In this document: positions 6,405-31,950 of the stretch, in pieces
Numbering within the stretch: the stretch's first letter is position 1
Layout of the letters: every line of letters begins with the position of its first letter
Source of the DNA: a virus
IMG/VR virus record: IMGVR_UViG_3300034407_002591
Span: 1-33,139 of that record
DNA length: 33,139 nt
Strand: one strand, 5' to 3'
The notes under the pieces: generated by a model
What the model was told of the DNA's origin: nothing
The model's database searches: none
Seen by the model: only the letters and a program-made list of their open reading frames with translations
Program-made: the position numbers and the translations under genes

Positions 6405-8882
6405 ATGACAGTAGAAACGATTGTAAGCGCGCCGCTTGGCGTTGCGGGAGAGTATCCAAGCCATGACAACAAGCTAGGGCTTGGCGGGATTCATGTGTTC
6501 ACCAACATTAAAGAGCGCGATCTGATGTGGGCGACACTGAAAGATAAAAACACGGTGGCACTGGTTGGCAATGGCGAAAACAATTACCCGTCTTGGTATA
6601 AATGGGAGTCTGGAAAGTGGCACTTTTCGGGGTACTTTGGCGGCATGGTATTAGCTGATGTTGATGGAGCGCTAACGCACGTTGATAGTACCGCCGTGTT
6701 TGGTGCTGATTTTGAAATACAAAGCGCGGGCGATACTGGTCAGGGTGTTTTGTTGATGTTAAGCGCAGCGGTTAAGGCTGAAATTGCAAAGAAAGCGGGC
6801 GCGGGCGCGATAACCATAAAGTCACAAAAAGACACAATAGCTGGAGTTGGTCAGTTGACTATTGCAGAGGGCTTGGAGTTAGTGCCAGATAAAGATGACA
6901 AAACCAAGGCGCTAATTCGCATTGATCCCGCTTTCTTCTTTGCAGGCAAGCCTAGCGCGTACTTGGCAGGGCTAAAGAAAAACATTGCAATAACCGCGCT
7001 TAATCCTGATGGCGTTGTATTTTTTGATAAGCCAATGACGCAAGCGGGCGAGGGCGCGATAACCATAAAGTCACAAAAAGACACAATAGCTGGAGTTGGT
7101 CAGTTGACTATTGCAGAGGGCTTGGAGTTAGTGCCAGATAAAGATGACAAAACCAAGGCGCTAATTCGCATTGATCCCGCTTTCTTCTTTGCAGGCAAGC
7201 CTAGCGCGTACTTGGCAGGGCTAAAGAAAAACATTGCAATAACCGCGCTTAATCCTGATGGCGTTGTATTTTTTGATAAGCCAATGACGCAAGCGGGCGA
7301 GGGGATTGAGGTAAATAAAGATAGCTACGGAATACAAGACCCAACAATGGATGATCCCAATGTTACTGGCGGGACACCTACGGAAATTCTATCAACAATA
7401 GGGTTTATCGGTAACGCACCTGAAAGCGGGCGCATTATGTTTTCTGTGAAAGTAAAGCGCATGGGGGAAAGCGAGAAGTTTTTAACCAATCCCAACGGAA
7501 AGGTAATTGTTTATGAGCGTGAAGTGACGCTGGGGCAAAAGCTAAAGCCAATGTTTCTGGCTGGTATTGTTCAGGCAAAAGGTGTTGAGTACATTCGCTT
7601 GCATGTATCGCACAACTTCAAAGCCTCAGAGCTTGTGATCGACCATACAAAATCATTCTTGTGTTTCCAGCAATTAGCAAACGGGTGGCAATCGTCAGTT
7701 GCTCGAAATGCATTTGAACAAAAAGCGGGCGTTGTTTTTACTCCAGAGATTGAGCACTTTGGTGCGGATATCATAAGCGCGGCGGATGAACTGAAAACAG
7801 ACACAGCAATGATTAGCGGAAGTGCTGGCGATAGCTTTGAAGATTTGGATTTGTTGGGATTTAACACGCTGGCACCAGTAAGCGTTGGTATCGTTGGCGG
7901 TAACTTCACAGCTACTAGCAGCGGCTCAGATATCGCAGACTTTATGCTGGATATGGCGGCGGACAATTACAATACAAAATTGTTGCGCGGTCATAATGTA
8001 ACGTTTGATATCGAGCTGGTGGACAAAAACAGCGGTTGGAATTTTGACTTGTACGCATGGACTGGAGAGGTGGACAAACCAACACAGCTCTATGGAAACA
8101 GAAGCAATCAGGCTATAAACGTAAATGCAAACTTTACCAAGATAGCAACTACGTTCATTAGTGAGGATATTGTTAGCGGCGCTCATAAGGCTAGCGTGAG
8201 CGGGGTCATTCCTGATGATGCAAATAACATTGTTGCGGTGATCTACCCAGTCGAAGCTCAAAACCCATTGACGCTAAAAGTTGCAAGCATGGCCATGAGT
8301 TCGGAGCCGTTCACAGCATACGCGGAAACAATGCCAGAACTAGCAAGCGAGCGCCATTTGCACTTGAGCGAGTCATACGCGCGCTTTATCCAAAATACGC
8401 AAGGGTTTGCAGCATTGCGCTATACATACAACGCAAAAGAGCAGCCAGCGCCAACAGGCAAGCAATTTAGAGGTAATGCACCAATTACTATTGATTCGTC
8501 AATAAACTTAATAGCAGGAAGCCAAGCAAGGGGCGGTGAGGGTGTTTACAAGTTTGGCTTTGATGGGATTGTAAAGGTATCAACTAGCGTTAGCGTCTCA
8601 AATGAAACTAATTCAGACACAACAATGTCACTGTTTTTTAGGGGTGTTGATATTGATGGGGCTTTAGGTGGTGAAATTCCAGATAGTAAAGTTACATTCA
8701 CAGTAAAGGCGGGGGATAAAAACGTTGAACACTCACTGCCAGCATTCGAAATTACAGTGCAAGAGGGGTACAGAATTGCACCGCGCATCACCGAAAGTGC
8801 GCAAGATGGCGGCTATCTGGAGTGTGACAGCGACAGACAGCCACTAATCGAAACAACGTTTGATATTAAAAAGCTAATCTAA
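6405..8882 (+). CDS. Large fibre-like structural protein with a perfect internal tandem duplication
   Basis: 825 residues; ATG at 6405 preceded by GGAG. Mostly beta-rich and Gly/Ala/Thr/Asp-rich, like phage fibre or spike proteins, but without a catalytic or chaperone motif that I recognise. Residues about 134-216 are repeated exactly as 217-299, because 249 bp of DNA are duplicated in tandem in frame (see 6803-7303). The junction sequence Q-A-G-E-G marks each unit end. Together with the genes at 5190 and 5546 it makes a second adsorption-type module, separate from the gp17-like fibre at 2017. Confidence 0.7.
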   Translation: MTVETIVSAPLGVAGEYPSHDNKLGLGGIHVFTNIKERDLMWATLKDKNTVALVGNGENNYPSWYKWESGKWHFSGYFGGMVLADVDGALTHVDSTAVFGADFEIQSAGDTGQGVLLMLSAAVKAEIAKKAGAGAITIKSQKDTIAGVGQLTIAEGLELVPDKDDKTKALIRIDPAFFFAGKPSAYLAGLKKNIAITALNPDGVVFFDKPMTQAGEGAITIKSQKDTIAGVGQLTIAEGLELVPDKDDKTKALIRIDPAFFFAGKPSAYLAGLKKNIAITALNPDGVVFFDKPMTQAGEGIEVNKDSYGIQDPTMDDPNVTGGTPTEILSTIGFIGNAPESGRIMFSVKVKRMGESEKFLTNPNGKVIVYEREVTLGQKLKPMFLAGIVQAKGVEYIRLHVSHNFKASELVIDHTKSFLCFQQLANGWQSSVARNAFEQKAGVVFTPEIEHFGADIISAADELKTDTAMISGSAGDSFEDLDLLGFNTLAPVSVGIVGGNFTATSSGSDIADFMLDMAADNYNTKLLRGHNVTFDIELVDKNSGWNFDLYAWTGEVDKPTQLYGNRSNQAINVNANFTKIATTFISEDIVSGAHKASVSGVIPDDANNIVAVIYPVEAQNPLTLKVASMAMSSEPFTAYAETMPELASERHLHLSESYARFIQNTQGFAALRYTYNAKEQPAPTGKQFRGNAPITIDSSINLIAGSQARGGEGVYKFGFDGIVKVSTSVSVSNETNSDTTMSLFFRGVDIDGALGGEIPDSKVTFTVKAGDKNVEHSLPAFEITVQEGYRIAPRITESAQDGGYLECDSDRQPLIETTFDIKKLI
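6803..7303 (+). repeat. Perfect tandem duplication, period 249 bp (83 codons)
   Basis: 6803-7054 and 7052-7303 are identical base for base, giving two full units of 249 bp plus a 3-base overlap. Bases just upstream of the first copy (6793-6801) also match the end of each unit, with one mismatch at 6802/7051. Identity at all third codon positions points to a very recent duplication. Confidence 0.95.
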
Positions 8883-9192: not shown

Positions 9193-9236
9193 TCTCAATC
9201 TTGAGATGAGCCCAGCCTTTCGGTTGGGCTTTTTTT
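9193..9236 (+). terminator. Rho-independent terminator with a small preceding hairpin
   Basis: GCCCAGCC (9210-9217), loop TTTC, GGTTGGGC (9222-9229), followed by eight T. One G-T wobble in the stem. A second small hairpin, TCTCAA TC TTGAGA (9193-9206), lies just before it. It separates the virion-type genes from the accessory half. Confidence 0.92.
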
Positions 9237-9258
9237 TGCCTATCACGCAAAATTAATC

Positions 9259-9287
9259 TTGACGGTTAAAACATAAAGCTATACATT
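9259..9287 (+). promoter_or_regulatory. Sigma70-type promoter for the first accessory operon
   Basis: TTGACG (9259-9264), 17 bases, TACATT (9282-9287); an alternative -10, TATACA, starts at 9280 with 15 bases spacing. A GGTTAA half-site (9264-9269) overlaps the end of the -35 box and GGTTAC recurs at 9311. It stands directly behind a strong terminator and in front of a run of closely packed small genes. Confidence 0.7.
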
Positions 9288-9319
9288 GGCCTTAAATCAT
9301 TAACTAAATAGGTTACAGC

Positions 9320-9406
9320 ATGACAAAGACAGGGTTTCATTTTCTTATGGTGGCATTGCTTTGTTTCTTTGCTTTGTTCATGAACGCAACTAAGGCGGGG
9401 TTCTAA
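9320..9406 (+). CDS. 28-residue single-span membrane peptide
   Basis: ATG at 9320, stop TAA at 9404-9406, one base before the start of the next gene. The peptide has a short basic start (MTKTG), a hydrophobic helix of about 15 residues rich in Phe/Leu/Val, and a polar end (NATKAGF). It is the first possible gene behind the promoter at 9259. The ribosome site (AGGTTA) is weak. Phages often place such mini membrane proteins at the start of early units, but it could also be only a leader for the next gene. Confidence 0.45.
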   Translation: MTKTGFHFLMVALLCFFALFMNATKAGF

Positions 9407-9407
9407 T

Positions 9408-9929
9408 ATGGCCAACTCAAAATTCAAGTGCTCAAGCTGCAAAGAGTATTTTCCTCAAGCGCAAAAGCTAAGAACCAACACTGGCAGCTTTTGTTCAAAA
9501 GAGTGTTGCAACCAAAAGCGCAACAAACGCCAAGCTGATGACTTTAAAAAGTCGAAAGAGCGCAAAAGCGGTGCGCCAACAGTCGAGCAGGAAAGCGCAT
9601 GGCTTGATCAGATAGCCCAGTTTGTTGTGAGCAACGGCTCATACCCGCGCGGCAATAAGGGCAAATGGCAGCATCACCACTTGTTTGGGCGCAAAGCAAG
9701 ACACGCTGGAAAGGAGATTGGACGCTGGGCTGTGTTGCCAGTTGAATTTAAGTATCACGATGTATCGAGTAGTGATCCTAAAAACATTACTCACTTTCCT
9801 AAGAACTACGTTGAGGCGTTTGGTTCTGACATCCAGCAATTTTTGTTCATGTGCCAAGAAATAGAAGCGGAGCAAGGGCGCTTGGAAATCCCTCGCGAAA
9901 TGCTAGAAGCAATTGCGGAGCTGGCATGA
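9408..9929 (+). CDS. Zinc-finger/HNH-like protein, NinG/Ref-like in layout
   Basis: 173 residues. The N-terminus carries a four-cysteine zinc-binding motif (C8-x2-C11 ... C29-x3-C33), then a basic Lys/Arg-rich linker. The central part contains WQHHHLFGRKARHAGKE, which looks like the His-rich core of HNH/His-Me finger nucleases, followed by RWAVLPVEFKYHD. The layout (N-terminal zinc knuckle plus His-Me-like core) resembles phage recombination accessory proteins such as NinG or Ref, but the match is by eye and the usual downstream Asn/His residues are not clear. Likely DNA-acting. It ends in ATGATG, coupling it to the next gene. Confidence 0.6.
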   Translation: MANSKFKCSSCKEYFPQAQKLRTNTGSFCSKECCNQKRNKRQADDFKKSKERKSGAPTVEQESAWLDQIAQFVVSNGSYPRGNKGKWQHHHLFGRKARHAGKEIGRWAVLPVEFKYHDVSSSDPKNITHFPKNYVEAFGSDIQQFLFMCQEIEAEQGRLEIPREMLEAIAELA

Positions 9930-10150
9930 TGGAAAAGTTTCTGGTAACAACGCACAACCAAGAGGGCGTGCAATCACAAGATGAAGCGCACAAGCCCGCA
10001 ATCGTAGAAGCTGAAACAATGCTACAAGCTGCGGAAGCACTGGGCGGTGTTGTGCTGGTAGATGCAAATCAATTCATTCTGGTTGGTAGAATTGACGGCA
10101 AAAAGGTTATGCGCTTTGTTGTTACACCAATCATAAATACTACGGGGTGA
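9926..10150 (+). CDS. Small conserved-type phage protein, unknown function
   Basis: 74 residues from the ATG at 9926, which overlaps the upstream stop TGA (9927-9929) and has GGAG before it; a second ATG at 9929 is equally possible. The frame extends further upstream, but that part lies inside the preceding gene. Predicted small alpha/beta protein with alternating hydrophobic strands near the end (FILVGRIDGKKVMRFVV). No family recognised. Confidence 0.6.
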   Translation: MMEKFLVTTHNQEGVQSQDEAHKPAIVEAETMLQAAEALGGVVLVDANQFILVGRIDGKKVMRFVVTPIINTTG

Positions 10151-10156
10151 TTAACG

Positions 10157-10423
10157 GTGCGAGTTAGCAGGGTACAAAAGCAAATCTTACTGATGCTTGC
10201 TGCAAGCTTTGTAAGTGGTATTAGGTCAATTGATACCGTCAGTTTGCGGTTAGCAATAGAAAAGAAAGAGGGCGCAAACCTAGACCGCGCCAACTTTCGC
10301 AAGTCTTATTTAAAGCTGGTGGATAACGGACTAATCCAGCGTAGAGAATGCAGGGAAGATATTTATTTAAACATAGCCCCAGACGGGTTTGAAAAAGCAT
10401 TAGAGCTAAGGAATGAAAAATGA
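10157..10423 (+). CDS. Small winged-helix-like protein
   Basis: 88 residues from a GTG start at 10157, with GGGGTGA at a proper distance. The pattern of short helices (VQKQILLMLAASF, FRKSYLKLVDNGLIQRR) followed by YLNIAPDGFEKALEL resembles a winged-helix fold of the type found in phage regulators, where L-V-x-x-G-L-I is the end of the recognition helix and start of the wing. DNA binding is inferred from this pattern only. Its stop overlaps the next start (ATGA). Confidence 0.55.
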   Translation: MRVSRVQKQILLMLAASFVSGIRSIDTVSLRLAIEKKEGANLDRANFRKSYLKLVDNGLIQRRECREDIYLNIAPDGFEKALELRNEK

Positions 10424-10836
10424 AAAAAGTATTATTGCGCAGCGCGTACGTTACAACAGAAAAAGATAGCAATCATGAAATACCAAGAGGCTCAATTGTT
10501 GATGTGATCGAACTTGGTAAGCCAGAGTCAGATAGCCTTGTTTCTCATCCAGATTGTAAAGGGTTTCACTTTTGGAATCGTGACATGGTTGATGCTGGTG
10601 ATTTTTACGATTTAAGCTCGCATGAGTTTGAGCTTTACCAAAATGAAATCCTTTACAGAAAAGCAATGGATGCTGGTTGGCGTCAGCAGATGCCAAAAGA
10701 AAAGGCACTGGCTTTACTGGTTGCTGGCTTGTTCGAGATAAAGCGCGAGAGCGACAAGAAAGAAATCGAACGCATCATGAACGCACCGCAACCAATGCTA
10801 ATTCCGGTTTATGAAATGGGGGACGGGAAGAAATGA
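10420..10836 (+). CDS. Hypothetical protein of early cluster
   Basis: 138 residues, start ATG overlapping the upstream stop (ATGA). Acidic, soluble, with His/Trp/Tyr-rich middle (HPDCKGFHFWNRDM) and a helical charged C-terminal half. I do not recognise a family. The coupled start shows it is translated together with its neighbours. Confidence 0.55.
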   Translation: MKKVLLRSAYVTTEKDSNHEIPRGSIVDVIELGKPESDSLVSHPDCKGFHFWNRDMVDAGDFYDLSSHEFELYQNEILYRKAMDAGWRQQMPKEKALALLVAGLFEIKRESDKKEIERIMNAPQPMLIPVYEMGDGKK

Positions 10837-11015
10837 AAAAAGATTGGGACGGCTTTACAGTTTCAAAGAAAGACAGAACACGCGCCAGCGAAGCCACAGA
10901 GCAAGAAAGAAGAGCAAGCAGAGCTAGAGGTCGAATAGAAGAGCATAACGACCGTGTAGCGCTAGCGGCTGAATTAGGCATAACATTAACTGAACTAAAG
11001 GAAATGGAAAGATGA
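10833..11015 (+). CDS. Small charged helical protein
   Basis: 60 residues, very rich in Arg, Glu, Lys and Ala; almost surely one or two long helices. Its ATG overlaps the upstream stop and its own stop overlaps the next start (ATGA at both ends). The end, AAELGITLTELKEMER, looks like a short helix-turn-helix-like cap but is too brief to judge. Function unknown. Confidence 0.5.
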   Translation: MKKDWDGFTVSKKDRTRASEATEQERRASRARGRIEEHNDRVALAAELGITLTELKEMER

Positions 11016-11371
11016 CGGAAGTAGAATCAAGTCTTTTATTGGGATTGGTAGCTGGCTTTGTACTGGCGCTAATATTCACTGGTATGTGGTTTGTGGCCAA
11101 GATTGAAGAATACAAACAAGCCCATGAAACAATCACGACCAACTATGCGCAATTCATGGAAAAGAAATTGCAGCACACAGCGATTGAGAATTATTGCAAA
11201 GGCTTATCACAGGCTCGAATGATAGTGAAATACCTACAGCGAAAGGATTTTATGAACGCCGACATTGCTTGTGATGCGGTGCTTATGAAGATAGGTGAAA
11301 AGATGAAGCCAGCAGAAGATGAGCTGGAGATTAGACATAAGATTCTAAAAGAACATAATCACCATGTTTGA
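11012..11371 (+). CDS. Single-pass membrane protein, unknown function
   Basis: 119 residues. After a short acidic start there is one strong membrane helix (about residues 7-28, LLLGLVAGFVLALIFTGMWFV), then a helical, charged cytoplasmic or periplasmic part. No signal-peptidase or lipobox motif. The shape (N-terminal anchor plus long helix) would also fit an inner-membrane spanin, but the lysis genes are elsewhere and the gene sits in the early cluster, so I leave the role open. Last gene of the first accessory unit. Confidence 0.55.
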   Translation: MTEVESSLLLGLVAGFVLALIFTGMWFVAKIEEYKQAHETITTNYAQFMEKKLQHTAIENYCKGLSQARMIVKYLQRKDFMNADIACDAVLMKIGEKMKPAEDELEIRHKILKEHNHHV

Positions 11372-11393
11372 TTGAAATCACAAAAAGATACAA

Positions 11394-11444
11394 TTAACCG
11401 TTGTGGTTAAACAAGAAAGTGGCTATATTATCCGTACAGGTTAA
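11394..11444 (+). promoter_or_regulatory. Promoter with TTAACC-N5-GGTTAA palindrome and ACAGGTTAA element
   Basis: TTGTGG (11401-11406), 17 bases, TATATT (11424-11429). The inverted repeat TTAACC GTTGT GGTTAA (11394-11410) covers the -35 box. ACAGGTTAA (11436-11444) starts 12 bases after the first base of the -10 box, exactly as in the promoter at 15546. A repressor bound here would cover both promoter boxes and the start of transcription. Confidence 0.75.
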
Positions 11445-11472
11445 ATATAGTCACTTTTTTATGGGCGGAACA

Positions 11473-11736
11473 ATGGACAAGATTACTTGGTTAGCAACAG
11501 CAGCAGAATTGGAAATGGAATTGCTAGCATTAAAAGGCAAAGTCTTAGCTGGTTGCCTTACTCAAAAGCAAGCAATTGAAGAATGTTTATTGATCGGCTT
11601 GGATGGTGTTTGGCAGTCGCTGGACATTGCGTTATTTGGTGACAGTTCGCTAGCTGGTGGGCTGACAACAGAGTTATGGCTTTCTATCCAATCGTTAGAA
11701 AGTGAAATGGGTTTGCATTTGTGCGTACCGTACTAA
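11473..11736 (+). CDS. Small protein, unknown function
   Basis: 87 residues from the ATG at 11473 (ribosome site GGCGGA); the open frame extends upstream through the promoter, which argues against earlier starts. Leucine- and alanine-rich helical protein with a central segment CLTQKQAIEECLLIGLDGVW. No family recognised. First gene of the second accessory unit. Confidence 0.55.
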   Translation: MDKITWLATAAELEMELLALKGKVLAGCLTQKQAIEECLLIGLDGVWQSLDIALFGDSSLAGGLTTELWLSIQSLESEMGLHLCVPY

Positions 11737-11748
11737 GGGGAAAGAACG

Positions 11749-12144
11749 ATGAAATCAGAAATTAAACAAGCATTTAAGCAAATGGATTGGGAGCACATTT
11801 TCAAATTGTCGGGCGGTATCGCTGGCGCTTTGATGTTAATCGGAATGATGAAATCTGGCATGGATGACATTGATAACAACGTGCGCATGATGCGCGCTGC
11901 CTTTTTTATCTTTGTGTCACTGTTCGCGTTGATCTTCATTGCTTTGATGATTGGTGACACGCAAGCGCTAATCAATCAAAAGCGCCGAGTTGCGGAGCGA
12001 ATAGAGAAGAACAGGCAAGACTTGTGCTTATGGTCAAATGATGACATTCCAACAATGACAGATAGAGAGTTGGAACTATTCGCGGCTGGCATCAAGGCCA
12101 AAAACATTTCAAAGCGCGCAGGGCGCAAGATTAGCGAGGACTAG
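11749..12144 (+). CDS. Two-span membrane protein, unknown function
   Basis: 131 residues; ribosome site AGGGGAAAG. Two hydrophobic segments (about 18-36, LSGGIAGALMLIGMMKSG, and about 50-68, AFFIFVSLFALIFIALMIG) separated by a short polar loop, followed by a charged helical tail. Could sit in the inner membrane as a small hairpin protein. No lysis or exclusion family recognised. Confidence 0.55.
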   Translation: MKSEIKQAFKQMDWEHIFKLSGGIAGALMLIGMMKSGMDDIDNNVRMMRAAFFIFVSLFALIFIALMIGDTQALINQKRRVAERIEKNRQDLCLWSNDDIPTMTDRELELFAAGIKAKNISKRAGRKISED

Positions 12145-12147
12145 GCA

Positions 12148-12522
12148 ATGGCTTGGAAGCAATGGCAATTGGACGTAGTAACGGAGGCTGACGGCAAGCT
12201 GACAGCGTACCAGATAGGCGACAAGGTGGGAAAAGAGCCAGCAACAGTTAGGCGTTATCTCGACAACCACAAAATCCCCTACCTTAAAGCGCGCAACAAT
12301 CGTGATGTTTACACCGACCAGCAAATCAAAGAGGTAGAAGACGCACTGGCAGTTGGTGATAAATCCCATGTAGAAATCGCCAAGATGTTAAACGTTCACA
12401 AATCGTTAGTGTCGTTTGTGTCTTGCGGTCGCCGTACAAGAAGGGGCGCGCAAGAGCAGGAGACTAAGAACGCGCCAGAATCAACAAAGGCAATGGAAGC
12501 ATTTAAAAAGGTGTTCGGATGA
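12148..12522 (+). CDS. Helix-turn-helix DNA-binding protein
   Basis: 124 residues. Two HTH-like segments are visible: residues about 17-50 (LTAYQIGDKVGKEPATVRRYLDNHKI), like a MerR/homeodomain-type HTH, and residues about 70-95 (SHVEIAKMLNVHKSLVSFVSCG), like a resolvase/homeodomain-type HTH. A basic RRTRRG stretch follows. This suggests a phage regulator or DNA-bending protein; no catalytic domain is present. Its stop overlaps the next start (ATGA). Confidence 0.6.
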   Translation: MAWKQWQLDVVTEADGKLTAYQIGDKVGKEPATVRRYLDNHKIPYLKARNNRDVYTDQQIKEVEDALAVGDKSHVEIAKMLNVHKSLVSFVSCGRRTRRGAQEQETKNAPESTKAMEAFKKVFG

Positions 12523-12707
12523 GATACGAAGATTTAACAGAGTTCCAGAAGAAATACTGGCGCGTTGTAAATGGCTTTTGTCACTGGTGCAGAAATTCGC
12601 AAATGGTGCGATCTACTGTGTTCGGGGTGATTCCAATTGATTGCCCTAAATGTGGGGCTAATCCAAAAAAGCGCCAACCAGCACTGGTGACTAATGATGA
12701 TAAATAA
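12519..12707 (+). CDS. Small zinc-ribbon protein
   Basis: 62 residues with two CxxC knuckles, C21-H-W-C24 and C42-P-K-C45, 17 residues apart, which is the layout of a zinc ribbon. The start overlaps the upstream HTH gene (ATGA) and the end overlaps the next gene by 14 bases. Probably binds nucleic acid or a host protein; no specific family recognised. Confidence 0.6.
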   Translation: MRYEDLTEFQKKYWRVVNGFCHWCRNSQMVRSTVFGVIPIDCPKCGANPKKRQPALVTNDDK

Positions 12708-13125
12708 ACAGACTAAAAAATGGGTGTGCGAAATATCCCGCGCTCAGTCGCTTTTCAATGTTGAGCTGTGCGAAGAAATGGTGGAGATAACGAACGCCAA
12801 TGATGCGCAGCTAATAAAAGCATTCGTACTTGACGAAGTGTATGCAGAGGATAGAGAAACGCTAATAAGCGCGATTGTGCCTCATTTACCAGCAACTAGA
12901 AACTTTCGTTATGAATTAAAGGAACGGTTGCAAGGTCGGGAAAAGCTCACAGTTTGGACTAGCAAAGAGAACGCCGACACACTGCGAGAGCTGGCGCGCG
13001 CCATGCTGGAGTATCCGGTTTTAAGTTGTGCAATGTTGCGATGTACAAAGACGGGGCATAACGTTTCACTGGCGCATGTTGACGAGAAGATGAAAGAGCG
13101 CAAGAATAAAGGCTTTTACGATTAG
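12694..13125 (+). CDS. Hypothetical protein
   Basis: 143 residues from ATG 12694 (a second ATG follows at once at 12697). It overlaps the zinc-ribbon gene by 14 bases. Mixed alpha/beta, acidic first half, Arg/Lys-rich end (DEKMKERKNKGFYD). Its four cysteines are scattered and do not form an obvious metal site. Family unknown. Confidence 0.55.
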   Translation: MMINKQTKKWVCEISRAQSLFNVELCEEMVEITNANDAQLIKAFVLDEVYAEDRETLISAIVPHLPATRNFRYELKERLQGREKLTVWTSKENADTLRELARAMLEYPVLSCAMLRCTKTGHNVSLAHVDEKMKERKNKGFYD

Positions 13126-13148
13126 TCACTGGTGACGGGGAAAGAGCG

Positions 13149-13421
13149 ATGGGTAAAGGTGATATCAAGTGTGAAATGTGCAACGGGGCAAGACTGGTAA
13201 AGCAGCTTGTAACCAAAATGCCTTGTTACAAATGCAACGGCGCGGGAGTGCTAAAAGCAAACATGAAACCTTATACAGAGTTTGAAGTTATCAAAGCTTT
13301 GTTGGGTGAGGTTCAAAGCTTAAATAAGAAAAACTATTTATTGCGGTTAACTGGTGGTGATGATGAAGACCTAGACCACCATGACGGCAAAAACCCAAAC
13401 ACTAATTACAGGGGTGATTAA
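13149..13421 (+). CDS. DnaJ-type zinc-finger small protein
   Basis: 90 residues. The N-terminal third has two CxxCNGA motifs (C8-x2-C11-NGA and C26-x2-C29-NGAG), the signature of half a DnaJ cysteine-rich domain, here without a J domain. The remainder is a charged helical tail with an Asp/His-rich end. In phages such proteins occur among antiterminators and small regulators; which of these applies cannot be told. It ends directly before the next ATG. Confidence 0.6.
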   Translation: MGKGDIKCEMCNGARLVKQLVTKMPCYKCNGAGVLKANMKPYTEFEVIKALLGEVQSLNKKNYLLRLTGGDDEDLDHHDGKNPNTNYRGD

Positions 13422-13700
13422 ATGTTACAGATAGCAATAAGCAAGCTAGAGCAACACAAGGAATTTACCATTGTGTTTATTGGTGGTAAAAATGACGGCG
13501 AAATCAGACAAGTAAACAGAGTCCCGCCGTCCGTAAATATGCCAGAGCATTACAAGCGCATTGATTTATCACTGGACAGGTCGCCAAAGAGAAGTAATAC
13601 AGTTGCGATCACTTACGCACACGAAGCGCTAACAGACGCGGAAGTGTTGAACATTCTTTTAACTCGCTACGTACAAGGGGCATCAAAAACCGAATCTTAA
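13422..13700 (+). CDS. Hypothetical protein
   Basis: 92 residues; ATG directly after the upstream stop, ribosome site GGGGTGA. The middle (FTIVFIGGKNDGEIRQVNRVPPSV) looks like a small beta domain, and the rest is helical. No family recognised. Confidence 0.5.
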   Translation: MLQIAISKLEQHKEFTIVFIGGKNDGEIRQVNRVPPSVNMPEHYKRIDLSLDRSPKRSNTVAITYAHEALTDAEVLNILLTRYVQGASKTES

Positions 13701-13705
13701 CCACT

Positions 13706-13724
13706 GGGCGCACTTGCGCCCTTT
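13706..13724 (+). terminator. Weak hairpin in front of the lysis genes
   Basis: GGGCGC ACTT GCGCCC followed by only TTTCT. It could be a partial terminator or an RNA stability element between 13700 and the endolysin gene at 13744. Confidence 0.45.
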
Positions 13725-13743
13725 CTCACATAAGGAATAAGGC

Positions 13744-14085
13744 ATGGCAACATTAGGCCAAAAGCAAAAGATGTTTGTACGCATGATTGCTGATCTAATC
13801 ATGTTTGCGTGCGAGCAAGGCTATGAATTAACGTTCGGTGATACATTTCGAGATCCAAGAGTTCACGGCAAGTTTGGTAACAAGATTGGTTACAGTGCCG
13901 CGCGGTCGGTTCATAAATTAAAGCTGGCTTGTGACTTTAATCTGTTTGTAAAGGGTGTTTACATTCAAACCAGCAACCACAAAGCATGGGACGAATTACA
14001 CGAATACTGGGAGTCGATAGGTGGAGCAAAAAGAATACCTAATGACGCCAATCATTTTTCAATAGAGCATGACGGGAAAAGATAA
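13744..14085 (+). CDS. Endolysin, M15-family zinc peptidase
   Basis: 113 residues, similar in size to compact phage peptidases of the VanY/M15 group. The zinc site is visible: S-x-H57 ... A-x-D64 (SVHKLKLACDFN) and H104 near the end (NDANHFSIEH). In the family these enzymes cut the peptide stem of peptidoglycan; T5 endolysin is an L-alanoyl-D-glutamate endopeptidase of this type. There is no signal peptide or membrane anchor, so it needs a holin to reach the wall. Ribosome site AAGGAATAAGG. Confidence 0.85.
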   Translation: MATLGQKQKMFVRMIADLIMFACEQGYELTFGDTFRDPRVHGKFGNKIGYSAARSVHKLKLACDFNLFVKGVYIQTSNHKAWDELHEYWESIGGAKRIPNDANHFSIEHDGKR

Positions 14086-14372
14086 TGGTAATTAAAGCAA
14101 CTAAAAAACCAGTAACAATTGAGGCGGTATTGTGGGACAAGACCGGAAGAAGTCAGGCGGCAATGAGCAAGTTTTTACCTTGTGAAAGTCGTATTCTTGA
14201 TTATTCAAAATGCGGGACGGGGGATTGTCCTGATTTATCCATAGCAACGCTTGAGGGCAATATGCTTGTTAGTGTTGGCGATTACGTTATCAAGGGCGTA
14301 CAAGGTGAGTTTTACCCATGTAAGCCGGATATTTTTTTAGCTACTTATGATATTGAAGAGAGTGAAAAATAA
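14085..14372 (+). CDS. Conserved phage protein of the GDY-V/I-IKG-x-x-GEFYPCKPDIF type
   Basis: 95 residues, start overlapping the last base of the endolysin stop. It carries the motif VGDYVIKGVQGEFYPCKPDIF in form (residues about 64-84), which I know from many small phage and prophage proteins of unknown function. Beta-rich, soluble. No enzymatic motif. Confidence 0.65.
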   Translation: MVIKATKKPVTIEAVLWDKTGRSQAAMSKFLPCESRILDYSKCGTGDCPDLSIATLEGNMLVSVGDYVIKGVQGEFYPCKPDIFLATYDIEESEK

Positions 14373-14863
14373 TGGATATTGCAAAGTACAAGAAAATCAA
14401 AGCGGCCTATGAAAAAGCTAATAAATCAATCATCGAGCTGGTGGACACTACAAACGAGCTTGATCCTAATTGCTCACTGTTTGGTGACATATTGCTGGAC
14501 TTAGACGGCGTGCAATCATTGCTGGAAATGCAAGAAAAGCTGGCTGATATGGAGAAAGGTTTTAACCGTGAATTTATGCGCCTCCAGAAAAACAAGCTGA
14601 TCGAAAACCAGCACGCCTTGCTGAATCCGCCAGAAGCGGGCGCGCAGTTAGAGATAATAGAAGGTGGGGACGGTTCAGACGACTTTCTATGCAAAGAGGC
14701 AATGGCTCACGTAGCGAACACAGGCCGCGCCAGTGTGTCTGGCTTACAGCGTCATTTAAAAATTGGATACACCCGCGCAGGAAGAATAATGCAAGCGCTT
14801 GAGGCGCTAGGCGTTGTTTCTGAGTGTGGCGATGATGGGGTGCGAACAGTTATAGCAAAATAG
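14372..14863 (+). CDS. Phage protein with C-terminal FtsK-gamma-like winged helix
   Basis: 163 residues. Residues about 1-82 are helical and charged, probably coiled coil; a short linker follows. Residues about 104-163 closely follow the gamma domain of the FtsK DNA translocase (TGRASVSGLQRHLKIGYTRA, then G-R-I-M-Q-A-L-E and V-V-S-E). In FtsK this domain reads the polar KOPS sequence and touches XerD. As I recall the E. coli protein, base contacts are made by Asn1296, Arg1300 and Glu1303; here the matching residues are Thr134, Arg138 and Gln141, so specificity may differ. There is no motor domain. The gene lies between endolysin and holin and overlaps its upstream neighbour by one base. Confidence 0.75.
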   Translation: MDIAKYKKIKAAYEKANKSIIELVDTTNELDPNCSLFGDILLDLDGVQSLLEMQEKLADMEKGFNREFMRLQKNKLIENQHALLNPPEAGAQLEIIEGGDGSDDFLCKEAMAHVANTGRASVSGLQRHLKIGYTRAGRIMQALEALGVVSECGDDGVRTVIAK

Positions 14864-14875
14864 TAAGGAAGCGAA

Positions 14876-15028
14876 ATGGACAAGAAAGAGCGAAGACATA
14901 AAGACAGAGCGCACAAAGCACGCCGTAAGCGCTTTGTAAGGCAAGAGCAGCAGGAAGCGCAATCACGCGGGTTATCAGTCGCACAGCTTAGGGCTGAGAA
15001 ATTCAACACAAACCTATGGGGTAGATAG
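14876..15028 (+). CDS. Small very basic protein
   Basis: 50 residues, ATG 14876 with ribosome site AAGGAAG, stop TAG at 15026-15028, one base before the holin start. The first 22 residues are almost all Lys, Arg, His and Asp/Glu (KKERRHKDRAHKARRKRFV). Ribosome site and tight spacing support a real gene. Function unknown; binding of nucleic acid is possible. Confidence 0.6.
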   Translation: MDKKERRHKDRAHKARRKRFVRQEQQEAQSRGLSVAQLRAEKFNTNLWGR

Positions 15029-15029
15029 C

Positions 15030-15491
15030 ATGGCAGTAGATCCGATAACGGCGGCGTTAAACTTTGGCAGTACACTTTTAGATAAGTTTATTGACGACCC
15101 AGAAGCAAAGGCGGCGCACGCGCTAGAAATGGCAAAGCTCGCGCAAGGTGGGAGCTTGGCAGAGTTAAATGCCTATGTAGCTCAAATGACAGGTCAATTA
15201 AAAGTGAATGCAGCAGAAGCGCAACATGATTCTATTTTTGTTGCTGGCTGGCGTCCTTTTATTGGCTGGGTTGGTGGTTCAGCGATGGCGTATCAGTTCC
15301 TTGTGTATCCAGCCTTAATGTGGGTGTGGCAACTTTGCGCGGCTATGGGTTGGATTCCAAGCGAGGCGGAGCCGCCACCAATAATGGAAACGGGCGCGCT
15401 ATTCTCAATAGTTACCGCCATGCTTGGTGTTGGTGCAATGCGAAGTCATGACAAGGCAAAAGGAGTAAATACAAGAAAGGTAACAAAATAG
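15030..15491 (+). CDS. Holin, 3-TM (GTA-holin-like) family
   Basis: 153 residues. After a helical, soluble N-terminus (about 1-66) comes the segment VAGWRPFIGWVGG (71-83), typical of the phage/gene-transfer-agent holin family with up to three membrane segments. Hydrophobic stretches lie at about 75-105 and 122-138. Such proteins open the inner membrane so that the endolysin can act. The endolysin is three genes upstream in the same unit, and a terminator follows 16 bases after the stop. Confidence 0.8.
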   Translation: MAVDPITAALNFGSTLLDKFIDDPEAKAAHALEMAKLAQGGSLAELNAYVAQMTGQLKVNAAEAQHDSIFVAGWRPFIGWVGGSAMAYQFLVYPALMWVWQLCAAMGWIPSEAEPPPIMETGALFSIVTAMLGVGAMRSHDKAKGVNTRKVTK

Positions 15492-15545: not shown

Positions 15546-15589
15546 TTGATAGGTTTAACCAGTTGGGTTATATTATCTAAACAGGTTAA
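15546..15589 (+). promoter_or_regulatory. Promoter with GGTTTAACC and ACAGGTTAA operator-like elements
   Basis: TTGATA (15546-15551), 17 bases, TATATT (15569-15574). The perfect palindrome GGTTTAACC (15552-15560) and GGGTTA (15565-15570) lie in the spacer. ACAGGTTAA (15581-15589) is placed exactly as in the 11401 promoter. It drives the unit that encodes a Cro-like protein, so self-regulation is plausible. Confidence 0.78.
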
Positions 15590-15885: not shown

Positions 15886-16128
15886 GTGGAGTATTCAGCA
15901 GGACAAATAACAGGCGCGGCAGTATGCGCCCTGATGAAAAGCTTAGATGTAGATGAGCACTGGCTAGCTAAAAAGCTAGAGGTTAAAGTGCCGTACGTCT
16001 ACGGAATCAAAAAGGGAAAGCCAATGTCACTGGAGCAATGCAAAAAGGTTGCTACTTTGTTTGGTTGCAAGTTGTCGGAATTTATCACGATTGGAGAAAA
16101 GAGCCTTGAAGCAGCCGAGAAGAATTAA
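15886..16128 (+). CDS. Cro/XRE-type HTH regulator
   Basis: 80 residues from a GTG start with a strong ribosome site (GAGGGGAAAGG). Residues about 20-68 fit an XRE/Cro helix-turn-helix: DEHWLAKKLEVKVPYVYGIK, where the second helix would read DNA, then MSLEQCKKVATLFGCKLSEFI, the typical later helices. Single-domain size fits Cro rather than a CI repressor, which would carry a dimerisation/cleavage domain. It is the best candidate to bind the GGTTAA-type sites at 5153, 9264, 11394-11444 and 15552-15589. The link is inferred from position only. Confidence 0.75.
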   Translation: MEYSAGQITGAAVCALMKSLDVDEHWLAKKLEVKVPYVYGIKKGKPMSLEQCKKVATLFGCKLSEFITIGEKSLEAAEKN

Positions 16129-16959: not shown

Positions 16960-18135
16960 ATGAAGACTAAAAAAGTGACCATTTCCGAAAGAGTGATCAA
17001 GGCATATCTAAACGATTCACAGGTTTATCAACTGAGAGATAAAAACTTACCGCTTGTGTTGCGCTTCAATAAAGCTAGAACTGGCGGCACTTGGTACGCG
17101 GTGAATTATAAAAAAGGAGAGAAGCCATTAACCAAGTTTGCAAGTTATCCACTAGTCAGCACCAGCATAGCAAAGCGAAAATTGCCAGAGCACACAGCAA
17201 GTAAAGAGCGTGTGAGTATCGAGCACTTTTTAACGGTTGGCGATCTTCTTTGTTGGCATCTTGAAAGAATCGAGCTTGATTCAAACATAACGGAAGTTAG
17301 AAAGCGCGGTATAAGGTCGGCAATAAATAAGCATCTAATCCCATTGCTCGGTGGGTTGGAAATAATACAGGCAACCAAGAAAGACATTTTGGATTTGCTA
17401 ATAAAGCCAATGCAGGAAACGCACAAAGTTGCAACCATTCAAAAGACATTTTCAGTGCTGCGCTATTCAATCAAGATAGCTTACGGGTTGGAGTTGGTGG
17501 GAGACTGCAAATTGTTAAACGTCATGTACAAGGATTTTAAACTGGCGCGCCCAGATGTTAGACAGTCGAAGCTTTCTATTGTGGATATCCCAGACTTAAT
17601 GGCGGAATTAAACAGTTACCGCGTAACAACGGAAAGAACATTGGTGATGATGATGCTCTATCATGGAACGCGAGTTAGTGAAACCGCGCTGGCTGAATGG
17701 AAGCATATCGACCTAAAGAACGGGGTTTGGACTATCCCAGCCAAGAACACAAAGACCAGAAAGCAAATAAAAATTCCACTGACTCCACATGCTTACACAC
17801 TTTTAAAAGACTGGCATAAGGAGTTGATTGGAAAGAGAAAATATAGAGGTCGCTACATATTCCCATCAACCATAAGAACGCACATAAGTGATAACCCAAT
17901 AAGCGAACCAAGACGACACCAGTTAATCAAGATGATCTCTAATTGTGATTGGACGGCGCACGATACCCGTAAGTGCTGTGCAACCTCTTGGCTTGAAATG
18001 GGCTTTGACTTCTTCATTATCGAATGCCAATTGAACCACACGAAAAGCGACCAAGTGAGCGCCTATTTCCAGACCGAGATATTCAACAGGCGCAAAGCTA
18101 TGTTGGAGCACTGGCATAAATTCTTGAACTTTTAA
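16960..18135 (+). CDS. int: Tyrosine recombinase (phage integrase)
   Basis: 391 residues, the normal length for a phage integrase. Residues about 1-80 form an N-terminal arm-binding-like domain, about 85-190 the core-binding helices, and about 205-391 the catalytic domain. The catalytic set is complete: Arg238 (YHGTRVSE), Lys265 (NTKT), His334 and Arg337 (AHDTRK), His360 (LNH) and the nucleophile Tyr369 (SAYFQ). It should join phage and host DNA at att sites. It stands between a terminator and the non-coding region before the terminase genes. All neighbours point the same way, and no excisionase or CI-like repressor is evident near it. Confidence 0.92.
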   Translation: MKTKKVTISERVIKAYLNDSQVYQLRDKNLPLVLRFNKARTGGTWYAVNYKKGEKPLTKFASYPLVSTSIAKRKLPEHTASKERVSIEHFLTVGDLLCWHLERIELDSNITEVRKRGIRSAINKHLIPLLGGLEIIQATKKDILDLLIKPMQETHKVATIQKTFSVLRYSIKIAYGLELVGDCKLLNVMYKDFKLARPDVRQSKLSIVDIPDLMAELNSYRVTTERTLVMMMLYHGTRVSETALAEWKHIDLKNGVWTIPAKNTKTRKQIKIPLTPHAYTLLKDWHKELIGKRKYRGRYIFPSTIRTHISDNPISEPRRHQLIKMISNCDWTAHDTRKCCATSWLEMGFDFFIIECQLNHTKSDQVSAYFQTEIFNRRKAMLEHWHKFLNF

Positions 18136-18245: not shown

Positions 18246-18368
18246 GGGCTGTGTGGGTTGTGGCTTGTGATTTGTTGCGCGCACGCGTAAGGAAAAACTT
18301 TTTATTGTGGTTTTGTCGCAAAAGCGCTATTTTTTGTCACGAAAGCAAACCATATTCACACAGCGCCC
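18246..18368. repeat. Long-spaced inverted repeat around the terS upstream region
   Basis: GGGCTGTGTG (18246-18255) can pair with CACACAGCGCCC (18357-18368) with a 2-base bulge. It encloses the 21-bp-period repeats. Ten paired bases with about 100 bases between arms may be chance. Confidence 0.4.
18311..18347 (+). repeat. Two 16-bp direct repeats, 21-bp period
   Basis: TTTTGTCGCAAAAGCG (18311-18326) and TTTTGTCACGAAAGCA (18332-18347) agree at 13 of 16 bases. A spacing of two helical turns places both on one face of the DNA, as expected for protein-binding iterons such as terminase or integrase sites. Confidence 0.55.
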
Positions 18369-30568: not shown

Positions 30569-31950
30569 TGCCATTTATTCCATTAAATGAAAATCCGGTG
30601 TTTTCTCCAGAAAGAAGCATGGAGACAGAAACCGAAAAGCAATCACGATTGCTAGGTGATTATACAGCGGGAAGAGTTGACCCAAACGGCGGCGCATGGG
30701 AAACCATGAAAGCTGCTTTTCGTCTGGATAACAGCTTGGCAAGTTACGCATACAACAAAACAACACAAACCTTTGATGCGCTGGAGGGCTACAGCCCATA
30801 TTCAGAGAAGATAGAAACAGAGGGCTATGATCCAATGTTGTTTGTTGAGTCGCGCAGCCCAGAGCAAACGGCGCACATTAAAAGCCAGATTGATCTAGAA
30901 AGCGAAGACAGGCGCTTTATTGAGTCGCAAGGCGCTGGAGGTTGGGCGGCTAGTATGGCGGCAGGGCTAACAGACCCAATGACATTGGCAACAATGCTAA
31001 TTCCATTTGGTACGGTGGCCAAGGGTGGTTCATTGATAGCTAGCGGTATGCGTGCGGCGGCTGGTGGTGTTGTTGGTTCTGGTGCGACCGAATGGGCTTT
31101 ACATCAATCACAGATAACGCGTACGGCGGAAGAGTCAGCAATAAACATACTTGCAGACGCCACACTGTCTGGAACGCTAGGAACGGCGGCACAAGCCTTT
31201 ATTAACAAGGGCGAGGCTGGCATAGCAAAGCAGAAGCTAAAAAGCTATATGACCGATAGCGGAGAGTATGCAGCAGCAGCAGCGCCGCATAAGTCCGTGG
31301 GTGCTGCGGCAGTTGAGCAAACCACAATGGCGGATGAAACGCTATTACATGCAAAGGCTGTAAAAACAATGGGCTTCTTTTCTCCACAAGTTGCAATGAT
31401 GGAAAGTAAATCACTAGCAGCCCGCAAAGCAGCGCAAGCCCTTGCTGAAAACAATCTGATATTTGCCAAGAACGAAGCAGGAGTGGCAACAAAGCAAGCC
31501 GTTGAAACGAATATAAAGCGTTACAACGGTTTAATTCACAGTGTAAATCGCGATTCAAAAACAATGTACGCGGCATATAAAAAGCGCATAGCAGAAGCGC
31601 AAGCGGCAGGAAGCACACCGGAAGACTTGCTGGCAATGACGCCAAGAGACGACCGACTGAGAGCGGGGCAGGGTGATTCACTACCAAAACCAATGAGTGA
31701 GCAAGAGTTTTATTATCGTGTAACCAAGGCCATGCGAGACGGTGACGAGTCATTTATACCAGAAGCGCAAGCGCTAGCTAAACAGTTGCGCCCTATCTAT
31801 GCCCGGGGTCTGAAGCGCCCTGGGGTTTGCGTGGCTCTGGTTAGTGGATTCCAACCTGGTGTTGGTCGGTCTTGTTTGCAGCATAGAAGGCTGCTTCGAA
31901 CTCGTCAGGTGACGCGTCGTCGAGGTAGCTGTGGATCCGGTCGGTGTTGA
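30568..31950 (+). CDS. Large internal virion (ejection) protein, N-terminal part, with false tail after 31801
   Basis: Start ATG 30568 with AAGGGG upstream (the frame is open from a GTG at 30562). Genuine phage coding runs to 31801, and the rest of the gene is at 78-2017. Joined, it gives 1057 residues, shorter than T7 gp16 (about 1300). Residues about 120-190 are Gly/Ala-rich and hydrophobic (AASMAAGLTDP, AAAGGVVGSGATEW), likely membrane-active on ejection. No transglycosylase motif is seen at the N-terminus, unlike T7 gp16. Codons from 31802 to the stop at 31948-31950 come from the foreign IS tail and encode a meaningless Arg/Gly-rich end. Confidence 0.75.
   Translation: MPFIPLNENPVFSPERSMETETEKQSRLLGDYTAGRVDPNGGAWETMKAAFRLDNSLASYAYNKTTQTFDALEGYSPYSEKIETEGYDPMLFVESRSPEQTAHIKSQIDLESEDRRFIESQGAGGWAASMAAGLTDPMTLATMLIPFGTVAKGGSLIASGMRAAAGGVVGSGATEWALHQSQITRTAEESAINILADATLSGTLGTAAQAFINKGEAGIAKQKLKSYMTDSGEYAAAAAPHKSVGAAAVEQTTMADETLLHAKAVKTMGFFSPQVAMMESKSLAARKAAQALAENNLIFAKNEAGVATKQAVETNIKRYNGLIHSVNRDSKTMYAAYKKRIAEAQAAGSTPEDLLAMTPRDDRLRAGQGDSLPKPMSEQEFYYRVTKAMRDGDESFIPEAQALAKQLRPIYARGLKRPGVCVALVSGFQPGVGRSCLQHRRLLRTRQVTRRRGSCGSGRC
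31725..31801. repeat. 77-bp terminal direct repeat, copy 2
   Basis: Identical to bases 1-77. It marks the point where the phage circle closes and where the foreign tail is attached. Confidence 0.9.
31811..31837 (+). repeat. IS terminal inverted repeat, end behind orfB
   Basis: TGAAGCGCCCTGGGGTTTGC and onward aligns with the opposite end read inward (TGAATCGCACTGGGTTTCGC) with a few mismatches and two single-base gaps. Confidence 0.8.

Follow-up and report, generated by a model that had tools for sequence, protein, structure and literature searches.

A shared palindromic operator and a Ref-like HNH protein in the probable early region of a group of Vibrio podophages

Introduction

P1 Ref (PDB 3PLW) is a RecA-dependent HNH nuclease whose only substrate is RecA-bound DNA. 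It is a C1-repressed product of the lytic cycle that promotes SOS (PMC4713147). C1 operators are present at P1 ref. The staphylococcal phage PhiNM1 encodes Gp16, an early RecA-dependent HNH nuclease with a NinB-like N-terminus, which halts host replication (PMC12817073). The nin region of phage lambda (ninB-ninG-Q) consists of small coupled genes, includes a recombination nuclease and ends right before the lysis genes. Here we analyse the interval 9320–13700 of the virus record IMGVR_UViG_3300034407_002591, whose full 33,139 bases are called the window; genes are named by their start coordinates. A preliminary description had read this interval as a host-takeover or anti-defence region of tiny coupled genes. 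We find that the interval probably represents most of the early region, organized in two operons, of an integrase-carrying and probably temperate Vibrio podophage under repressor control, and that gene 9408 encodes a zinc finger fused to a putative Ref-like nuclease domain. The early region of a phage is a known kind of thing, and the cluster is real but largely familiar. The operator circuit and the Ref-like assignment appear to be new for this phage group, as suggested by a non-exhaustive literature search.

Results and discussion

Genome and relatives

With bases 1–77 of the record repeated at 31,725–31,801, the window amounts to one circularly permuted genome, about 31.7 kb long, of a Vibrio podophage. 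A DNA search returned 49 Vibrio phage records with similar DNA in INPHARED, a lower bound for the sequenced relatives. Seventeen relatives were fetched for comparison, sixteen of them close and one, CKB-S2, distant; they comprise V. lentus, V. splendidus and V. coralliilyticus phages as well as isolates obtained from seawater and oysters. Almost every gene lies on one strand. The late genes (terminase, portal, capsid, tail) run from roughly 18.4 kb around to 9.1 kb and are followed by the interval, the lysis genes (13.7–15.5 kb), a small helix-turn-helix (HTH) operon (15.6–16.9 kb) and the tyrosine integrase gene (16.96–18.1 kb), so that the lysis genes and the integrase are located outside 9320–13700. 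The gene order of the whole interval, the operators, the promoters and the integrase are the same in phages 1.138.O, PG9A-1/-2, 1.179.O, 1.254.O, 1.257.O, the D169 group, K411 and CKB-S2, whereas the slot 9929–10833, the zinc gene 12519, the endolysin and the holin are swapped. CKB-S2 differs further in having a complete PagP-like gene where the window has a 28-codon open reading frame (ORF).

Promoters and operators

Alignment of the intergenic gaps of the 17 relatives revealed three conserved sigma-70-type promoters, P1, P2 and P3. Each of them (at 9.26, 11.40 and 15.55 kb) carries a pair of copies of the 17-bp palindrome TTAACC-N5-GGTTAA. A scan allowing at most two mismatches gave nine sites in 33 kb against 1.25 expected, and none of 100 shuffled sequences reached nine. 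Six of the nine sites belong to the three promoters and the other three lie inside late genes. All six promoter copies occupy corresponding places in 16 of 16 close relatives, and CKB-S2 keeps one diverged copy per promoter. Terminators stand upstream of P1 and of P3. A 27-base operator stretch scanned in IMG/VR gave no match. The control elements, together with the candidate repressor and the integrase, are as follows.

9208–9231, plus strand: intrinsic terminator closing the late/tail transcription unit (10-bp stem and T8; kept in 17 of 17 relatives, loop variable, stem different in CKB-S2)
9253–9269, no strand: predicted operator O1a, TTAATCTTGACGGTTAA, over the P1 -35 (1 mismatch to TTAACC-N5-GGTTAA; 16 of 16 close relatives)
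9259–9287, plus strand: predicted promoter P1, TTGACG-17-TACATT (-35 is TTGACA in 14 relatives, spacing unchanged)
9300–9316, no strand: predicted operator O1b, TTAACTAAATAGGTTAC, just 3' of the P1 start (pattern scan, relatives)
11394–11410, no strand: predicted operator O2a, TTAACCGTTGTGGTTAA, over the P2 -35 (perfect match; 16 of 16 close relatives)
11401–11429, plus strand: predicted promoter P2, TTGTGG-17-TATATT (read from the sequence; conserved in 16 relatives)
11428–11444, no strand: predicted operator O2b, TTATCCGTACAGGTTAA, over the P2 -10/start (pattern scan, relatives)
11419–11460, plus strand: inverted repeat and T-run spanning P2 (RNA fold -14.2 kcal/mol, z -5.8; stem unchanged across 16 relatives)
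15546–15589, plus strand: predicted promoter P3, TTGATA-17-TATATT (15546–15574), with operators O3a (15555–15571) and O3b (15573–15589) (relatives' alignment, pattern scan)
15886–16128, plus strand: 80-aa Cro/CI-type HTH protein, candidate repressor of P1–P3 (HTH_3, phrog_1468, dN/dS)
16960–18135, plus strand: 391-aa tyrosine integrase (Phage_integrase E 6e-24; 17 of 17 relatives)

The conserved promoter at 11401–11429 means that the interval contains two transcription units instead of the single cluster first described. The stem-loop at 11419–11460 would terminate P1 transcripts, while P2 transcripts would be without its left arm.

The protein encoded by 15886, which is located in the P3 operon, matches phrog_1468 'transcriptional repressor' (E 5e-5) and HTH_3 (E 4e-4, 20.9 bits, just under the Pfam cut-off of 23). 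Its ratio of nonsynonymous to synonymous change (dN/dS), 0.057, is the lowest among the genes tested. By position and constraint, 15886 is the best candidate for the repressor acting on the palindromes. The phage combines a repeated operator over several promoters with a phage-encoded Cro/CI-type HTH protein.

The gene cluster

The preliminary description gave about thirteen packed short genes. The dense cluster is real, and its count is 14 plus-strand ORFs filling 9320–13700.

9320–9406, plus strand: 28-codon ORF resembling a signal peptide (homologue: N-terminal part of the CKB-S2 PagP-like protein)
9408–9929, plus strand: 173-aa zinc-finger and Ref-like HNH protein (AlphaFold2 model, structure match, HHxxGR motif, NinB neighbours of homologues)
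9926–10150, plus strand: 73–75-aa conserved protein, function unnamed, ATGA-coupled to 9408 (16 of 17 relatives)
10157–10423, plus strand: 88-aa winged-HTH-type protein (17 of 17 relatives; winged HTH in relatives' annotation)
10420–10836, plus strand: 138-aa protein of the variable slot (full length in 4, partial in 4 and absent in 9 of 17)
10833–11015, plus strand: 60-aa conserved protein, ATGA-coupled at both ends (17 of 17 relatives)
11012–11371, plus strand: 119-aa protein with a single N-terminal membrane segment (hydrophobicity, relatives)
11473–11736, plus strand: 87-aa conserved protein (17 of 17 relatives; dN/dS 0.18; start agrees with relatives' annotation)
11749–12144, plus strand: 131-aa membrane protein (hydrophobicity, relatives)
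12148–12522, plus strand: 124-aa HTH DNA-binding protein (phrog_323, E 3e-6; 49 phage records)
12519–12707, plus strand: 62-aa Cys4 zinc-ribbon protein, optional (in 1.138.O and CKB-S2 only, of 17)
12694–13125, plus strand: 143-aa conserved protein (phrog_11804, an unnamed PHROG, E 1e-10; 17 of 17 relatives)
13149–13421, plus strand: 90-aa protein, Cys4 zinc motif of the DnaJ/anti-TRAP type (weak profile matches; all four Cys invariant)
13422–13700, plus strand: 92-aa conserved protein, last before the lysis cassette (17 of 17 relatives)

These genes are real, as their order is kept in 17 of 17 relatives and the pooled dN/dS is 0.09–0.36 for each testable gene apart from the 28-codon ORF; the pooled values come from mutually non-independent pairwise counts and show the direction, not exact values. 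Eleven of the 14 occur in 17/17 relatives and 9926 in 16/17, while 12519 is found in 2/17 and full-length 10420 in 4/17.

Most of the described features hold. Four-base ATGA overlaps join 9408/9926, 10157/10420, 10420/10833, 10833/11012 and 12148/12519, and 12519/12694 overlap by 14 bases. The three small zinc-binding proteins carry the Cys4 sets C8, C11, C29, C33 (9408), C21, C24, C42, C45 (12519) and C8, C11, C26, C29 (13149). The two HTH proteins are 12148, whose matches are confined to this phage group at the sensitivity used, and 10157, which is weak in the window and assigned by the annotation of its relatives. Three proteins are hydrophobic, with segments of mean Kyte–Doolittle hydropathy 2.0 (9320), 2.3 (11012) and 2.9 (11749). 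The 28-residue gene 9320 stands as an ORF with a hydrophobic segment and is doubtful as a functional gene (dN/dS about 0.6, likely a recombination tract). The 50-residue gene 14876, by comparison, is well supported (dN/dS 0.095, 16/17 relatives).

The Ref-like protein 9408

The AlphaFold2 model of 9408, built on homologue sequences, has a mean predicted local distance difference test (pLDDT) score of 87, and its C-terminal domain has the HNH (beta-beta-alpha metal) fold of P1 Ref. A Foldseek search of this model against the PDB gave no match at E ≤ 0.001. In a second-look structure alignment, which compared the model with the families on a list, the best match was P1 Ref (3plw; Z 8.1, root-mean-square deviation 3.1, 92 of 110 residues), and the next were two CBASS Cap5 nucleases at about 6 (6.1). 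Within the HHxxGR motif of 9408, H90/H91 align to Ref H112/H113 (H112-H113-I-A-G-R). Of the zinc-coordinating catalytic histidines of Ref (H134, H153 and a third), H134 has a possible equivalent in H117, which follows the LP pair at the same distance; for H153 the candidate partner, perhaps H129, is not found in every homologue.

Like P1 Ref, 9408 combines a C-terminal HNH fold and HHxxGR with a basic N-terminal part, where 15 of the first 56 residues are K/R, and with repressor-controlled expression, the last inferred for 9408. The N-terminus is a Cys4 finger in 9408 and unstructured in Ref. We regard 9408 as a zinc finger fused to a Ref-like HNH domain, a putative nuclease.

Full-length 9408 found no match in IMG/VR scans, and the HNH-domain profile alone found relatives. 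Relatives of the C-terminal part are encoded by phages NF and HS1 and by 14 viral contigs from the environment, and the recombination mediator NinB is adjacent or close to these homologues in both phages and in 8/14 contigs. PhiNM1 Gp16 is likewise a phage HNH protein of the early region; it is a fusion of NinB-like and HNH parts, whereas the HNH domain of 9408 is joined to a zinc finger, and the window has no recognised NinB. As in the lambda nin region, the small coupled genes include a putative recombination nuclease and end right before the lysis genes, and a NinC-like gene occurs in two relatives. However, homology to NinG or Q is not at a convincing level. NinG (PF05766) similarity appears in 3/7 members of the 9408 family (best E 0.013), and profile comparison yields 25 zinc-finger columns with a probability of 1.5%.

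Proposed early control

The palindrome pairs on three promoters, kept in relatives, together with the Cro/CI-like candidate 15886 argue for a repressor-controlled early region. The P1 and P2 operons and the P3 operon, which encodes the candidate repressor, share one paired palindromic operator, so one Cro/CI-like protein would silence all three jointly. Without repression, host RNA polymerase would transcribe the early operons. Their products would include the Ref-like HNH nuclease, which may partner RecA in recombination and in the metabolism of host DNA, whichever gene fills the accessory slot, small membrane proteins and proteins of unnamed function, and HTH and zinc proteins, one or more of which would probably turn on late genes. 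The integrase and the repressor-type control suggest a temperate phage. The block of unnamed genes, common to 49 or more sequenced Vibrio phages, becomes a testable circuit in which a single operator, three early promoters and one candidate repressor are joined by an early effector, the Ref-like nuclease, and by a defined exchange slot.

Several observations weigh against this interpretation. The Z score of 8.1 for 9408 and Ref is barely above the tool's warning level for chance matches, and the structural zinc site of Ref (C96, C99, C130; CxxC/C) has no counterparts in 9408, which is therefore named Ref-like and not a Ref. The operators could be bound by 12148 or 10157, as 15886 was chosen solely for its position and constraint. 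Short-pattern scans of 84,980 genomes, sensitive to close relatives only, found no lysogen. In the Nahant survey, four phages with this integrase family form one genus, and prophages are reported for two other genera only (PMC8766483); by count, the four-phage genus would be that of 1.138, 1.179, 1.254 and 1.257. Finally, the capsid protein had no match on plasmids. A phage-plasmid was considered and rejected, given this result and integrase relatives on plasmids that are at most about 36% identical.

Alternative readings

Early expression, as suggested by the operators, agrees with a host-takeover or anti-defence region; takeover is plausible and anti-defence is unproven. Most products are unnamed, as described earlier, and non-structural; their genes share an operator within an early-type region, and profile scans of the cluster genes gave no match to structural proteins above noise. 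Takeover is best supported by 9408, because Ref is C1-repressed, lytic and SOS-promoting and the early Gp16 stops host replication. A dedicated island, in which most small genes would each block some host process or defence system on their own, would further account for the early-type control, for the many small unnamed proteins (membrane and zinc ones among them) and for the cargo of relatives at 9929–10833. In this slot, between 9408/9926/10157 and 10833, gene content differs from phage to phage: the window has 10420, 456E52 a Dam-type methyltransferase, 416E50 and K411 another DNA methyltransferase, D169 a queuine-tRNA-ribosyltransferase (TGT)-like enzyme, CKB-S2 a GNAT protein, and 284E43 and 434O48 PAPS-reductase/NinC-like proteins. 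The methyltransferases would fit an anti-restriction role, of which the window's own genes give no sign. Nevertheless, 12 of the 14 genes are present in 16–17 of the 17 phages and form a conserved core, so the interval is not a typical variable anti-defence island or turnover zone. A PADLOC-DB scan of 10 cluster genes gave only generic HTH matches, for 12148, in a library of defence proteins with few anti-defence ones. Moreover, 9408, 10157 and 12148, at the least, look like recombination or regulatory genes, and some part of the cluster or more serves these two functions. A dedicated island is thus unlikely.

Three narrower readings concern single parts of the interval. Neither the scanned genes of this ~31.7 kb phage nor the annotations of its relatives show a recognisable polymerase, helicase, primase or initiator, so replication relies on an unrecognised gene, most likely in the early region, or on the host alone. 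One of 12148, 12519 and 12694 might accordingly be an origin-binding initiator that recruits the host replisome, a tentative and rather unlikely option that is compatible with repressor-controlled early expression. The neighbouring 12148 and 12694 are universal in the group; however, no iterons or repeats were found near 12148–12694, and the HTH matches are to regulators. A single-sequence structure model of 12694 was unusable (pLDDT 39), and IMG/VR scans with 12694 gave no match. It is a long shot that, in this group of at least 49 dsDNA phages, the host replisome carries out recombination-dependent replication that the repressor-controlled zinc-finger/Ref-like nuclease initiates together with host RecA. 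Replication in the absence of a recognisable gene for it can be studied in existing isolates. Gene 13149, with 12694, could supply a lambda-Q-like antiterminator of late genes, as it sits like Q immediately 5' of the lysis genes and has a DnaJ-like Cys4 motif of the kind found in lambda Q. Yet profile comparison with lambda Q (hhalign) aligned 10 columns with a probability of 1.2%, and lambda Q is a single 207-aa protein, which leaves this role distinctly doubtful. For the 28-codon ORF and the hyperconserved surroundings 9292–9460, a structured RNA or leader-peptide regulator would agree with a synonymous divergence of 0.006 over the first 20 codons, the lowest of 1861 windows. This regulator is very improbable, since changes occur in every frame, the RNA fold is not better than shuffles (z +1.05), and the divergence/polymorphism ratio of 1.0 (2.1–3.8 elsewhere) marks a recombination tract. 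Nucleotide diversity (pi) within the larger clade is 0.031, ordinary for a conserved stretch, and between-clade divergence has collapsed to 0.030. By this comparison of sequences, 9292–9460 is probably a short tract across the P1 start, exchanged between two otherwise diverged clades.

Homology links the 28-codon ORF to the signal peptide, residues 1–28, of a 149-aa PagP-like protein encoded by CKB-S2 (phrog_3600, E 1e-28). The gene for this member of the lipid A palmitoyltransferase family (13692–14141 in CKB-S2) opens the P1 operon there. At 9266–9460 of the window, a minus-strand ORF is annotated in several relatives; a hidden RNA or overlapping antisense gene there was rejected on the changes in all frames, the shuffle-like fold and the recombination signature.

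Other features of the genome

The lysis cassette (13744–15491) is swapped among relatives, with two different M15 peptidases (113 or 132 aa) and an optional N4-Gp49-like gene, and the three-transmembrane (3TM) holin of the window is present in 3/17 relatives only. At 14372–14863 lies a phage protein with a C-terminal FtsK-gamma domain (Pfam E 1e-18; closest solved chain 2ve8). This domain is kept in 17/17 relatives and occurs in 239 phage records, often within other proteins. A Xer/dif link was rejected, with the best dif-like site showing 10 mismatches in 28 and two KOPS in 33 kb.

After the 77-bp repeat of the contig start, 31725–33139 holds an IS3-type transposase pair on the minus strand (G+C 0.61; phage about 0.46), which probably stems from a chimeric assembly and is not phage DNA. 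The tail protein gene 6405–8882 contains a 249-bp tandem duplication at 6793–7303, 99% identical; as the 1.138.O orthologue is shorter by 83 aa (249 bp), the duplication is recent in the window genome or an assembly effect. Between the integrase and the small terminase, at 18263–18299, the motif CTTGTGAT..GTTGCGCGCACGCGTAA shows few changes even in CKB-S2 and is perhaps a packaging (cos) site or a late control site.

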